Positions 14,247 to 21,163 of a stretch of 21,163 bases of DNA are shown here, one piece after another (position 1 is the stretch's first letter; each line of letters begins with the position of its first letter). Source of the stretch: a virus; IMG/VR virus record IMGVR_UViG_3300011445_000075, positions 1-21,163 of that record. The stretch is one strand, 5' to 3'. The notes beneath the pieces are model-generated. The model searched no databases, was not told the origin of the DNA, and was given only the letters and a program-made list of their open reading frames with translations. Made by a program: the position numbers and the translations under genes.

Positions 14247-16475
14247 TTGAAAACAAAAGGAATTTTTTTAATTGCGTTTGGCGACAAGGCGTATGTTTAT
14301 ATGGCATACAACCTTGCTTTTTCTATAAAACATTTCAATCCTAATTTACGAATAGGACTAATGCACGATGACAACATTCGATATCTTCAAGCATACGAAA
14401 AAACGGTGTTTGATGATTTTTACGAACTGCCTCAAGACTTGCTATGGAAAGAAGGACGGTTAGACCCCGCAAACATTAAAATCAATTTATATGACTTAAT
14501 ACCTTATGACGAAACATTGTACCTGGATGTGGACGCGGTTGTTACGCAAGACATCAGCCGGATATTTGAGGAGCAGACGGGCAATTATTACATTCATATA
14601 CTGGACGAGACGACATTAGAAAAGGGTCGCGATTTTCCAAATATGATTTGGGCGTGGATGGACGATGTTTACGAACACTTTAATCTTAAACCTGAAACTA
14701 AATTTCCTGCCACCAATTCAAGCATACAGTTAATCCGTAAGGGCGAATACTGCGAACACTTTTTCGCACGGCTTAAAGAAAATTATAATAACCCGCTTCC
14801 GCTTAATAAACTTCGCTCAACATGGGGGCAATCGCAGCCCGACGAGTTATATATCAACGTAACCTTAGCGCAGATGGGCTACGAACGCCTTAAACAGTAT
14901 ATCTTCTTTGGGCATACGTTCGCAAAGCAAAAAGACGCAGAGCTTCTTAAAGAGTATCTAATACTGTCAATCTATGGGGGGTGGGGTGTTACCCGTCTTC
15001 GTTATGTTGAACTCTACGACAGGCTCTTGGGCAGGAATTATTTCAGGGCTCATAAGATGAACTACATACACCGCTCAAATAACCTTATCCGCCCAAAGCA
15101 TTCAAATAAATCTTCTAAGCCTGCCAAGAAAGAAGTAGTAAGTGAGATTAAAAAGCTGGGTCGTGATGATAACGCAAAGACAGGCGAGCAGATAACTTTA
15201 TTTACCACCTATTACAAGGACGAAAAAGAATCGCGCAATAAAGAATATCTAAACTGCCTTCAAGCAAACATATCTAATCCGGAAATTGACAGGATTGTCA
15301 TTATTTGCGAATCAGATTTGCCTGTCAAGCATAAAAAGGTGACCGAGATTCCAAGCGACCACAGACCAACCTTCAAAGATATTTTCAGGCTAACAGGTGA
15401 TGGAATAAATATCGTTACCAATGCCGACATCTTTTTTGAGTCATCACATTGTAATTATATTAAGCAGCTAAATTTCGATAATTTATTTCTTGGTTTGTCG
15501 CGTTGGGATAGGCGCCACGGCAAGGATATTTTATTTAATTACGGCTTAAGCCAAGACGTTTGGATATTTAAGGGCAAGTATAAAGATGACACCCACGGAG
15601 ATTACACCTTCGGAAGTCCTGGCTGCGACAATCGTATTGCATACGAAGCAGGCAAAGCGTACGGTAAGATAATTAACCCTGCAAAGACAATTAAGTCAAT
15701 TCACTTGCACGAGTCCAACGTCAGGAACTATACACAAGACAACCGAGTGGTTGGTGATTACCGAGAATTGCCGCCCGTAATTTTATCTGAAACTTTATTT
15801 AAGCCCAGGTTAATGATAATCCAAAAAGGCAAGGTGGGCGATGTGTTGGTTTTACTTCCGGCCATTAAGGAACTATCGAAAACCCATGTCGTTGATTGGT
15901 TGCTGCCAGAACAGTACCACACCATGTTCCAATATATCAATTACTGCAAGCCGATTGAAAAAACGATAGCACAATATGAAAAGAAAATTGATTTAAGTTT
16001 TGGGCAGGGCGGGCAACCTGAAGCATGGTGGCAAAAAAATAAAACCAGGTTTAATTCTTTTGTAGAAGCGAAATATGAATTGCTTTGCATGGATGTTCAG
16101 ATTAAGAAAAACTTACTGGAATGGAACCGAAATAAAGAACGCGAAGAGGAGTTGTTTGCTAAAGTCGTAACAACGGAACCTTATGCTTTAGTGCATTGCG
16201 AATCGGATTATGGAGGAGCTATTGAACCAGAAACAGAATTGCCTATCGTCTTGTTCCAGCCTACGGGCAACCATACGGTTTTTGATTGGCTCAAAGTTGT
16301 AGAAAACGCTGCGGAGATTCATTGCATTGATTCTTCTTTGTGCAATTTCACAGACATGGTTAAGACTACCGGCAAATTATTTTATTATCCTAACGGCAAA
16401 GTGCCAAGTCAATACGACCGTACCCTGCTTTCAAAAACGTGGAAAGAATGCGACTCGCAAAAGATATTTGCCTAA
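14247..16475 (+). CDS. Three-domain glycosyltransferase fusion
   Basis: 742 aa with TTG as start; the first beta strand (KGIFLIAFGDKAYVYMAYNL) begins at once, so a later ATG would cut the fold. Domain 1 (about 4-230) is GT8-like, with LYLDVDAVV holding the nucleotide-sugar DxD (D94, D96) and a late FFGHTFA. Domain 2 (about 315-510) starts ITLFTTYYKDEKESRNKEYL, has RPTFKDIF and the acidic NADIFF near residue 392, then LGLSRWDRR; it looks like a second transferase-type domain of a less known family. Domain 3 (about 520-740) resembles a GT9 heptosyltransferase fold: QKGKVGDVLVLLPAI near residue 526, and HCIDSSLCNF at 692. Together they could build or add a short glycan on virion or host surface. 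The gene follows a terminator and overlaps the methyltransferase-like gene, so transcription may be separately controlled. Confidence 0.8.
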   Translation: MKTKGIFLIAFGDKAYVYMAYNLAFSIKHFNPNLRIGLMHDDNIRYLQAYEKTVFDDFYELPQDLLWKEGRLDPANIKINLYDLIPYDETLYLDVDAVVTQDISRIFEEQTGNYYIHILDETTLEKGRDFPNMIWAWMDDVYEHFNLKPETKFPATNSSIQLIRKGEYCEHFFARLKENYNNPLPLNKLRSTWGQSQPDELYINVTLAQMGYERLKQYIFFGHTFAKQKDAELLKEYLILSIYGGWGVTRLRYVELYDRLLGRNYFRAHKMNYIHRSNNLIRPKHSNKSSKPAKKEVVSEIKKLGRDDNAKTGEQITLFTTYYKDEKESRNKEYLNCLQANISNPEIDRIVIICESDLPVKHKKVTEIPSDHRPTFKDIFRLTGDGINIVTNADIFFESSHCNYIKQLNFDNLFLGLSRWDRRHGKDILFNYGLSQDVWIFKGKYKDDTHGDYTFGSPGCDNRIAYEAGKAYGKIINPAKTIKSIHLHESNVRNYTQDNRVVGDYRELPPVILSETLFKPRLMIIQKGKVGDVLVLLPAIKELSKTHVVDWLLPEQYHTMFQYINYCKPIEKTIAQYEKKIDLSFGQGGQPEAWWQKNKTRFNSFVEAKYELLCMDVQIKKNLLEWNRNKEREEELFAKVVTTEPYALVHCESDYGGAIEPETELPIVLFQPTGNHTVFDWLKVVENAAEIHCIDSSLCNFTDMVKTTGKLFYYPNGKVPSQYDRTLLSKTWKECDSQKIFA

Positions 16476-17119
16476 ACGGAGTTAGTGCTTCAAGCGGATT
16501 ATGCCTTGCCCTAAAACAGGTCATAGAAGAATACCGCCCGATGCGAATAATCGAAACAGGAACATACCACGGCACTGGCACCACGAAAGCAATTATTGAA
16601 GCGTGTATATTGTCGCAAGTAAAATCAATTCTTTACAGCATTGAATCAGACAAGGGAAATGTCGAGTTGTCAAAAAAGAATTTAGCTTTTTATCTTACCA
16701 ATCATTACTGCAAATTTGAAGTCCTGAGCGGAGTATCGGTTTCTAAAGAAGAAGCATTTACCACACCTTTAAATTATGCACACTTGCCGGAAGATATAAT
16801 TGTCGACTTTGTAAACCCAAAAGATTATACCAGAGAAATTGCACACGCGAGCCGGTATAATTTATTAGAAGAATGTTTTGCGAGATTTGACGGTGAGCCA
16901 GACTTGGTTGTTTTAGACAGCGCAGGTCATCTTGGCTTGCAGGAATTTTTATACGTGGTAGAAAATGCCAGGAAAGATTTTATACTCGCGTTAGATGATA
17001 TCAATCATATCAAACACCACGAATCAAAAAGGCTGATAACGGAAGTGGCATACAATGCGGAAATAATTCACCAAGGCGAAGATAAGTTTGGCTGGCTAAT
17101 TGCAAAAATAAAAATATGA
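16448..17119 (+). CDS. SAM-dependent methyltransferase-like protein
   Basis: 223 aa from ATG 16448 (MRLAKDICLNGVSA); a GTG at 16439 would add three residues. The start lies inside the end of the glycosyltransferase gene. The N-terminal helix is followed by a first-strand motif MRIIETGTYHGTGTTKAI (near residues 32-49), a good class I methyltransferase motif I (E-TGTYHGTG), with an acidic second-strand end SIESDKGNVEL. Later strands include DLVVLDSAGH and FILALDDINHI. Methyltransferases of this type, close to the Methyltransf_24 group, often act in O-antigen or glycan synthesis. Its place between two glycosyltransferases suggests methylation or tailoring of the sugar they add. Its stop overlaps the next ATG (ATGA at 17116-17119). 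The substrate is unknown. Confidence 0.7.
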   Translation: MRLAKDICLNGVSASSGLCLALKQVIEEYRPMRIIETGTYHGTGTTKAIIEACILSQVKSILYSIESDKGNVELSKKNLAFYLTNHYCKFEVLSGVSVSKEEAFTTPLNYAHLPEDIIVDFVNPKDYTREIAHASRYNLLEECFARFDGEPDLVVLDSAGHLGLQEFLYVVENARKDFILALDDINHIKHHESKRLITEVAYNAEIIHQGEDKFGWLIAKIKI

Positions 17120-17964
17120 GAGTCGCGGTCACTATAATCTACAACGGGCTTCACCACTTGCTTAATCGCGGGTTCGCAAAACGAATGGCAGAAATGTTTG
17201 ACGTTTGGGTCGTTGTAGATGGACTGTCAGATAACTTTGGCTCGGGCGGAAATAACAAATTAAACCTTCCTGCAATATCGCTGGACGGCACAATAGAATA
17301 TCTTAATTCACTTATACCAAAATATCCTAACATTAAAATCCTTCAAAGGGAGACGCCTTGGAAAAGCAAGGACGAACAATTTAATTATGCACTAACATAC
17401 CTTCGCGGTGTATATGAAATCGATAATACTTACCTGTGGCAAGTAGACGCCGACGAACAATGGGAATTGGCTGATATTGTCCAGGCAGAAATCGACTTAA
17501 ATAACGAAGGCGCAAATTGCGGAGCGTGTGGTTTCGTTCACCTAATGGGAATAGATTTAGTAGCAATCGGAGAGTGGTCAAGTTTCAGCTGGGCGCGGTT
17601 ATGGAAATGGAATGGACAAGAGTTACAGACACACGAACCGCCTATCATGCAAGGCGGAAACGGCAAGACTATTTTATTAAAACAGAAATTTATTCATTAC
17701 AGTTATTACTTCGAGTTTGATGTTCGCTTTAAGGCTACATACTACAAGGGCTACCAAAGAATTTTGCAAGAGTGGCAGAAGCTTGTGAACGGCCGTATAA
17801 GAGTGCCAATACGGGCTCACTTAGTTTTAAGACTCGGTAATAATAAAATGATTCGTCCAATATCTCGAACAAACATTCTACAATATGAAAATCAGAAAAA
17901 TCAAATCTTGCAGAGGCAAGAAAGGCTGCCAGCTAACCAAGTCGTGGGAGTTGATGCAGACTAA
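17116..17964 (+). CDS. Glycosyltransferase (GT-A fold, DxD)
   Basis: 282 aa. The N-terminus MRVAVTIIYNGLHHLLN starts a nucleotide-sugar fold strand. FDVWVVVDGLSDNFGSGG gives the usual second acidic loop, and KSKDEQFNYALTYLRG leads to TYLWQVDADEQW, where D111 and D113 form the DxD that holds the metal and sugar nucleotide. A later segment with FSWARLWKWNG and HYSYYFEFDVRF contributes the acceptor side, and the C-terminal 40 residues are basic and polar. It resembles GT2-type enzymes. There is no membrane helix, so it is likely soluble. It couples to the methyltransferase-like gene (ATGA) and precedes the portal gene by 15 bases. The enzyme class is likely; the acceptor is not shown. Confidence 0.75.
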   Translation: MRVAVTIIYNGLHHLLNRGFAKRMAEMFDVWVVVDGLSDNFGSGGNNKLNLPAISLDGTIEYLNSLIPKYPNIKILQRETPWKSKDEQFNYALTYLRGVYEIDNTYLWQVDADEQWELADIVQAEIDLNNEGANCGACGFVHLMGIDLVAIGEWSSFSWARLWKWNGQELQTHEPPIMQGGNGKTILLKQKFIHYSYYFEFDVRFKATYYKGYQRILQEWQKLVNGRIRVPIRAHLVLRLGNNKMIRPISRTNILQYENQKNQILQRQERLPANQVVGVDAD

Positions 17965-17979
17965 ATTAAAAATCGCAGC

Positions 17980-19881
17980 ATGAAAAAACTAACTGACGAA
18001 CAGATAACCGAAAAGGTTATGGCTGCTGTCAACGAATACAAGAAGGCGGCAATGTCTTCTAAGGCGGACATCTATAAGCAAGACGGTAAATTAAATTGCA
18101 CCGTATTCGGAGACGTGCATGAGGTTTCTGTTTCAATGTATGAGAGGATTCGCGTCCATTCCGAACATGGTGTATTTCCGGAACTCTTGTTCCTTAATAA
18201 GAGTCCCAGAATTCAAGCGGACGAATTTGATTACTTAAAAGATAATTTTAAAGGCGTTACGCTGCCGATTTTTATAGACTTTCTTAACACCCTTAAAAGG
18301 TGTTTTTATGAGGACAGCATGGAGTTCCAGAAAGAAGACGACACGCTTGTTAAGAATAAGCAAACCCTAAAAGACTATCTTGATATGCTTCCGAAATATG
18401 GAAACTTTTCTACGTATATCAAAGACCTTTTTCCTAAGTTTAAGACCATCGATGCGATGGGGTTGGTTGTTATTCGACCACGAGATGTTCAATTTGATAC
18501 AGCAGAAGACGGCATCACAAGAACAATCGCTAACACAGAAATGTTTGAGCCTTTGCCTTATAACATCTTGTCGAAAAATATTATCGCGTTCGAGGAAGAC
18601 GAGTGGTACTTGGTTTTAAGCGAAGAAAAATCCGAGGTAAGATACAAGACGAAGTTAGAAAACAAGGGAATGATTTTTGAATATTACGACAAAGAAACAA
18701 TAAAGAGAGTCGTTCAATTTGGAAACTTTGTCGACTATACTTTTAACCTCGAAGAATTCCTGCCACATAACCTGGGTTATGTTCCTGCTCGTCGCTGCAA
18801 AGGCATTCCGTGCATATACGGAGATAATTTAGTGTGGCAATCGCCTTACTTGTACGCTGTCGACATTCTTGACCTTGTGCTGCTTAATGCAACAAACCTG
18901 ATGTTGAGTATTTATAATTGTGCCTACCCAATAAAAATAATGTATGGAGATTTGTGTGAGGCGCCTTATACAGATGCGAACAGTACGTCTACGATTTGCC
19001 AAAATGGACAGGTGTTTGATACTGTAAAACAAGCGAACATCCAATGTCCGTCTTGCCACGGGTCGGGAATGAAAACACGATTGTCGCCTACAGGCCTTTT
19101 ATTATTAAAACCAAGGTCTTCAATGTCGCCCAATGATGCAGGATTTGAAAACGCCAAGCCCGTAGAATATGTTTCTCCAGACCCTTCAATTATGGACTGG
19201 CTAAATAAAAAAATACATGAGGACGAGCTTCGCGCCAAAAGAGTCCTTCACTTGCACACATCATCTTCAGAGGTGCAGGGAAAAGAAAATCTGTTAGCCA
19301 CGGATATGATGCTGGACAATAAGGCGATGTATGCTTTTATCCGGCCGCAATCAGACCAGATTCACGACATGACATTTTTTTGTGTTGACACGATAGGTAA
19401 GATGCGTTATGGCACAAAATTTGTCCAGCCAAAATACAAGAAGCCTGTATCGTTTGACTTAATGACGGAGAGCGAATATTTAATTAGAATATCCGAAGCA
19501 ACAAAAGCAGGCGCGCCAAACTTTATCATCTACGCAATGATGGTACAGTATTTAAAATCTTTTTATTCCACAGACACTCAATCCGCTAAGGTTACAGAAC
19601 TTATAATTGTCGTAGACAGGTTGTTGACACACACGCCAGAGGATATTATCGTGAAAAAGAATCGTAACCTTGTCGCAGATTGGGAAATTTATTTACATGA
19701 CAGTCCTGTTACTTTGACAAATATGATTATCAAAGAACTTGGCGGCATTGAAAAGTTCTTATCAACGCCCATATCTGAACTGGCAGAGAAAATGATGCAG
19801 CTCGCTAAATCACAAATGGAATTAATTACGGCAGAGATACCTGTCGAAGTTGAAGCCGAACCGTTTATCAGCGGTAATTAA
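17980..19881 (+). CDS. Portal protein (putative)
   Basis: 633 aa, matching the large portal proteins of Bacteroidota siphophages. The N-terminal 150 residues are helical, then a beta-rich stretch (VVIRPRDVQFDTAEDGITR) and a long wing region. The region YVSPDPSIMDWLNKKIHEDE, followed by RVLHLHTSSSEVQGKEN, fits the portal stem and clip region. Four Cys, C326, C340, C356 and C359, the last two in IQCPSCHGSGMK, form a zinc-ribbon-like insert. The C-terminal 130 residues are helical and end acidic. The portal forms the ring through which DNA enters and to which the neck binds. Its TAA overlaps the ATG of the Mu F-like gene (TAATG). The call uses length, layout and the next gene rather than a single catalytic motif. 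Confidence 0.75.
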   Translation: MKKLTDEQITEKVMAAVNEYKKAAMSSKADIYKQDGKLNCTVFGDVHEVSVSMYERIRVHSEHGVFPELLFLNKSPRIQADEFDYLKDNFKGVTLPIFIDFLNTLKRCFYEDSMEFQKEDDTLVKNKQTLKDYLDMLPKYGNFSTYIKDLFPKFKTIDAMGLVVIRPRDVQFDTAEDGITRTIANTEMFEPLPYNILSKNIIAFEEDEWYLVLSEEKSEVRYKTKLENKGMIFEYYDKETIKRVVQFGNFVDYTFNLEEFLPHNLGYVPARRCKGIPCIYGDNLVWQSPYLYAVDILDLVLLNATNLMLSIYNCAYPIKIMYGDLCEAPYTDANSTSTICQNGQVFDTVKQANIQCPSCHGSGMKTRLSPTGLLLLKPRSSMSPNDAGFENAKPVEYVSPDPSIMDWLNKKIHEDELRAKRVLHLHTSSSEVQGKENLLATDMMLDNKAMYAFIRPQSDQIHDMTFFCVDTIGKMRYGTKFVQPKYKKPVSFDLMTESEYLIRISEATKAGAPNFIIYAMMVQYLKSFYSTDTQSAKVTELIIVVDRLLTHTPEDIIVKKNRNLVADWEIYLHDSPVTLTNMIIKELGGIEKFLSTPISELAEKMMQLAKSQMELITAEIPVEVEAEPFISGN

Positions 19882-20552
19882 TGAAGGACACTCTTAAGAA
19901 GATACTGGAAGAAAAAGCAGCTCGGATAGAATCCGTGCCTGATAAGTTTTTAACCCAAGTTGACAAGGCTCAACTTCAAGCGTACAACAACATTCTTGAA
20001 TTGCTCGCGGAATTAAATGTCGAGGGCGGCAGGCTTGTTAAATCAAAGAAGAATTTCCGTATCGCGGACGACATCAACGCAGAGCTCAAGAAAGTTCTCA
20101 AGTCCACAGACTATTATGATGCCGTAAAAAGTTTCGTAAAAGACATTGGTGTTCAAGATAGTCTTACATTTGATTATTTCTCTAAAGCGTTTCCTAAGGT
20201 CAAGAAGATAGAAACCGAAATAGCAAAAGAGATTAAGAAACGAAGCCAAGCGGAGGCGATACAAGTGCTGCAAGGTATAAGCCTTGATAAAGCGTACATA
20301 GAGCCCCTTAAAACAGTTATCTCTGAGGCAGTGTACACGAACGCTGATTTTAAGGCCACATTGCGTACGATAAGAGAATTAGCTGTCGGGAGCAAGACCA
20401 AAGAAGGCAAGCTAAATCAATACGCGACCCAAGTAGCTTACGACACCTTTGCGGTAAGCGACCGCAGCTATACACAGGCGATATCACAAGACATTAATGC
20501 TGAATGGTTTTTTTACTCGGGCGACACCTTGCCTACCTCTCGTGAATTTTGA
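19881..20552 (+). CDS. Mu gpF-like head morphogenesis protein, N-terminal part ended by in-frame TGA
   Basis: 223 aa, coupled to the portal by TAATG. The product is almost all helix (MKDTLKKILEEKAARIE, with many Lys and Glu) until about residue 205, as in Mu F/SPP1 gp7 proteins, which bind portal and scaffold in procapsid assembly. The end, YSGDTLPTSREF, is where this family has its hallmark run; in Bacteroidota relatives, as I recall, a Cys usually follows. Here TGA (20550-20552) replaces that codon, and the same frame then stays open through 20795 with the rest of the domain. So this CDS is a truncated version unless the TGA is read through. All catalytic-like parts of this domain (none enzymatic) lie downstream. 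A recent mutation, a sequencing error or deliberate partial readthrough could all explain it. Confidence 0.75.
   Translation: MKDTLKKILEEKAARIESVPDKFLTQVDKAQLQAYNNILELLAELNVEGGRLVKSKKNFRIADDINAELKKVLKSTDYYDAVKSFVKDIGVQDSLTFDYFSKAFPKVKKIETEIAKEIKKRSQAEAIQVLQGISLDKAYIEPLKTVISEAVYTNADFKATLRTIRELAVGSKTKEGKLNQYATQVAYDTFAVSDRSYTQAISQDINAEWFFYSGDTLPTSREF
20550..20552 (+). other. In-frame TGA interrupting the Mu F-like gene
   Basis: TGA is codon 224 of the frame that opens at 19881. Upstream reads TSREF, downstream ISRYNEYFSKQEVQAWL without another stop for 80 codons. TGT or TGC (Cys) and TGG (Trp) are one change away. TGA is a normal terminator elsewhere in this window, for example at 1324-1326, 3098-3100 and 3625-3627, so a general recoding is excluded. 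Confidence 0.8.
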
Positions 20553-20795
20553 ATATCGAGGTATAACGAATATTTTAGTAAACAAGAGGTGCAAGCGTGG
20601 CTGGAATTAAAATGGGGCGGCAAGCACGTCAACACCAATAAAGATACCATTTTTAAATACGCTGGCGGTTATCGGTGTGGTCATTCCATAATGCCTGTAT
20701 CCGTATTTGATGTGCCAAAAGATGTATTATTTCGCAACATCAAAAAAGGTTACTTTAAACCTTCAAAAGATTTACGTAAAGAATTGGATATCTAA
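20553..20795 (+). pseudogene. C-terminal part of Mu gpF-like protein after in-frame stop
   Basis: 80 sense codons in the same frame as the upstream part, ending TAA at 20793-20795. The sequence keeps the family's C-terminal core: ISRYNEYFSKQEVQAW, LKWGGKHVN, then TIFKYAGGYRCGHSIMPVSV with the conserved GGYxCxH segment, and a basic tail (FKPSKDLRKELDI). An independent start at GTG 20589 is possible but would begin inside the domain, so separate translation as a functional protein is unlikely. With readthrough the full protein would have 304 residues. The preserved motifs, without other stops or frameshifts, show either very recent breakage or continued selection through readthrough. The promoter for the next gene overlaps its end. 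Confidence 0.7.
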
Positions 20796-21128: not shown

Positions 21129-21163
21129 ATGTCAAAAGAAATCTTAACCTTCTTAGGCTTCAA
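21129..21163 (+). CDS. Start of the next gene, cut by the window end
   Basis: ATG at 21129 opens a frame reading MSKEILTFLGF to the last base of the window, twelve bases after the previous stop. Position after portal and Mu F-like genes suggests a head protein such as scaffold, protease or capsid. Eleven codons are too few to identify it. Confidence 0.45.
   Translation, partial: MSKEILTFLGF

Follow-up and report, generated by a model that had tools for sequence, protein, structure and literature searches.

The in-frame TGA that interrupts a portal-adjacent head-region gene in a virus contig (IMG/VR record IMGVR_UViG_3300011445_000075, positions 1 to 21,163; the whole of this 21,163-nt stretch of DNA was analysed and is called the window here) is very probably an artefact of that one contig, with faulty sequencing or assembly as the likeliest cause and nothing out of the ordinary behind it, a reading to which we give a probability of roughly 0.86. 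The stop is private to the window contig, all of the differences between the window and its sister contigs lie in one patch that is shorter than a sequencing read, and the cysteine that the stop replaces is conserved. We infer that the patch was produced during sequencing or assembly rather than carried by a real virus; in the phage itself the gene is one open frame of 304 amino acids with Cys at codon 224. The features concerned are as follows.

17980 to 19881, + strand: portal protein gene, the upstream neighbour (phrog_7376, E 9e-19)
19881 to 20795, + strand: portal-adjacent head-region gene, interrupted by TGA in the window; in the sister contigs it runs for 304 codons before its stop
20550 to 20552, + strand: in-frame TGA at codon 224, where four of four sister contigs have TGC (Cys) and all relatives have Cys
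20552 to 20602, + strand: patch holding all four differences from the sisters, a probable sequencing or assembly error

In the frame that opens with the ATG at 19881, codon 224 is a TGA directly following the residues TSREF, and beyond it lie 80 open codons (ISRYNEY...KELDI) before a TAA at 20793-20795. The first-pass annotation of this DNA had placed the TGA at codon 224 of the frame with 80 codons beyond it, and both points were confirmed in the sequence. Because other genes in the window terminate with TGA (at 1326, 3100, 3627, 3821 and 17119), this triplet is an ordinary stop in the window, and the earlier statement to that effect is therefore borne out.

Scanning IMG/VR with the 223-amino-acid part of the protein recovered four further contigs, each named with a different sample number from the window's, all of which have TGC at codon 224 and an uninterrupted frame of 304 amino acids. 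One of these sisters (G004; 49,362 bp) spans the whole window and is identical to it at 21,159 of 21,163 bases. The other three overlap only the end of the window, over 3.3 to 4.9 kb, and show exactly the same four differences and none besides; compared with G004, they have 0, 0 and 1 base differences over 5,237, 4,776 and 13,658 bp, respectively. Across the 51-bp patch the four sisters are identical to one another. The first-pass annotation had held that TGC at this codon in sister genomes would make the stop an error or a strain mutation, and TGC is what every sister carried.

The four differences (window base/G004 base) are A/C at 20552, A/C at 20563, C/G at 20601 and T/C at 20602. They alter three codons in the window (Cys224 to stop, Ser228 to Tyr and Ala241 to Leu), and none of the changes is silent. 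If four changes had landed independently of one another in the 21,163 bp, the probability of their all falling within 51 bp would be about 5e-8, and therefore one event or one read produced the four changes.

The aligned codon was compared over 162 relative loci, where it was TGC in 160, TGT in two and a stop in none. These loci include some contigs fetched by two scans and represent 50 distinct core sequences, from Pelagibacter phages and viral contigs, and Cys occupies the position of codon 224 in 50 out of 50 of them. Thus the expectation of a Cys at this codon, already expressed in the first-pass annotation, agrees with all four sisters and with 162 of 162 relative loci. Cys224 aligns with the Cys of GDVIPTTREIC in the Pelagibacter phage homologues, with a common GGYxCxH downstream, and every one of the 50 cores has A, T, S, N or G directly behind the invariant Trp240, where the window has Leu. 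Since both Cys224 and the residue after Trp240 are conserved, two of the three residue changes in the window disrupt positions under conservation, which is what random errors would do.

If the patch is a sequencing or assembly error, the segment 20552-20602 would have been assembled from one error-rich read or from very thin coverage, low coverage or quality being presumed here, and this would have introduced four wrong bases into a phage copy that is otherwise perfect. The earlier suggestion of one recent nonsense mutation or an error of sequencing is supported in kind but not in number, as four bases within 51 bp are involved. Four erroneous bases close together in a single virus contig can look like an in-frame stop at a conserved residue, and sister genomes close a possible recoding claim.

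The main rival to an error of this kind is that the window's sample held a minority lineage in which a local cluster of mutations, arising in one complex event, truncated the gene, and that the assembler picked the reads of this lineage, which would be defective or rescued by an intact co-infecting phage. The contig as deposited does carry the four bases, and several mutations are known to arise close together in a single event, which is compatible with such a lineage. However, the 21 kb are otherwise without difference from the four sisters, and the bases of the patch were seen in no other contig. A pattern in which the four positions were left open matched nothing but the four sisters in the viral collection, from which records close to the window may be missing. 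The bases that the window has at 20601-20602 were absent from all other viral contigs in a scan that may omit records very near the window. Likewise, no bacterial or archaeal genome matched a 32-base pattern specific to the window that spans 20552 and 20563, in a set from which near records may again be missing. Furthermore, the lineage would have lost the invariant Cys and the GGYxCxH core of a gene that is intact in every relative seen, against which strong counter-selection would be expected. We therefore regard a real minority lineage as unlikely, and we consider it highly improbable that a real variant lives with the TGA, whether by reading through it in part or as a defective phage assisted by intact sisters.

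Less credible still is partial readthrough or recoding of the TGA to yield a short and a long product at a constant ratio, as the first-pass annotation had proposed. The frame beyond the TGA is indeed open and conserved to the end of the gene, but descent from the intact gene explains this. The four sisters have a sense codon, TGC, at this position and no stop was found among the 162 relative loci, so that the proposal is left unsupported, the sisters having no stop to read through. Among the phage sequences, neither the window nor G004 has a tRNA gene, Rfam gave no match in the window, and the RNA around and after the stop folded no better than shuffled sequences; for the first 51 nt after the stop, 193 of 200 shuffles folded at least as well. 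Selenocysteine insertion was rejected, with no tRNA gene in either the window or G004 and no stem.

We give as little credence to the idea that a diversity-generating retroelement rewrote the patch by adenine-directed mutation. In favour of it, the differences span no more than 51 bp and the window has A at two of the four sites, but no match to reverse transcriptase (PF00078) was obtained in G004 or in the other sisters, and G004 (49 kb, which may be incomplete) contained no further copy of the patch that could serve as a template. The four sisters are, moreover, identical in the patch, and many other A's there are unchanged. Recombination with a divergent relative was rejected, as no donor was found in the viral collection and none of the three codon changes is silent, and so was templated mutation from a palindrome, as the base at 20563 fits an inverted copy, TACCTC, at 20534-20539 (by eye) but the other three bases do not.

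The affected gene encodes a portal-adjacent head-region protein, probably minor-head-like, a name that we infer. The stop of the portal gene overlaps its ATG as TAATG, and the portal gene is intact and identical in the sisters that cover it. The label "Mu F-like" attached to the gene earlier is plausible, as it fits the location beside the portal gene and the C...GGYxCxH motif, but it lacks the backing of a family profile match. Pfam gave no match for the sister protein, and PF04233 was unmatched in 14 relatives. With TIGR01641 the best value was E 0.53, obtained for HTVC112P only and far below the cut-off; Mu gp30 itself gave E 6e-32 in the family profile test. Sequence searches of PHROGs, NCBIfam and PDB returned no significant family for the gene, and a scan of genome contigs with the protein found no relative. 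Alignment with Mu gp30 by hhalign was not significant (E 0.13, probability 0.4%), only the surroundings of GGYxCxH being aligned, and the AlphaFold2 model had a mean pLDDT of 41.7, too poor for use of the fold.

Phage proteins that are encoded next to the portal and share an invariant GDxxPTxRxxC...W...GGYxCxH core (L035-L190, P0001-P0003) form a family that is common in viral contigs and is found in Pelagibacter phages. Neither Pfam nor NCBIfam gave a significant match for this family, and PHROGs gave none for its Pelagibacter members.

Other phage content was also seen in the window and in G004. Directly upstream of the portal gene (14247-17964) lie three consecutive frames, none of which reaches the Pfam cut-off, with resemblance to a glycosyltransferase family 8 protein, a CmcI-like methyltransferase and a family 2 glycosyltransferase. 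Outside the window, on the minus strand, G004 carries genes for a QueD-type 6-pyruvoyl tetrahydropterin synthase (L014:362-850; PF01242, E 4e-30) and a GTP cyclohydrolase I (L015:10992-11570; PF01227, E 2e-60), with a QueE-like frame between the two (by eye). A further frame in G004 (L015:4783-5565) has a DSGAHSW motif and no Pfam match. This gene set suggests 7-deazaguanine DNA modification in the phage.

Among known systems, phage Mu gp30 (protein F) and SPP1 gp7 (PF04233, TIGR01641) resemble the window gene in that the gene lies right after the portal gene, Mu gp30 following the portal gp29, and the NGWNCRC of Mu gp30 resembles the GGYxCxH of the window gene family; unlike them, the window gene and its relatives have no significant profile match. 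Likeness was also found to gp30 of the Pelagibacter phages HTVC202P and HTVC112P, which are distantly related in sequence (27% identity), are portal-adjacent and have the same GDxxPTxRxxC...W...GGYxCxH core. The match to HTVC202P had an E value of 2e-4 in the collection search, and that to HTVC112P was weak when taken alone (E 0.1). These Pelagibacter proteins differ from the window gene in being intact and longer (330-340 amino acids), and they are unnamed, with the gene between portal and scaffold; the invariant C...GGYxCxH core that they share with this portal-adjacent gene may help to name a head-protein family. As for the patch itself, Illumina substitution errors are more frequent towards read ends and are favoured after 3-mers ending in GG (PMC4787001). 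The window substitutions are like those of this error profile in being private to one contig, confined to less than one read length and non-silent, and in lying partly after GG-ending 3-mers, since 20601 and 20602 are preceded by TGG and GGG on the + strand of the sister sequence.
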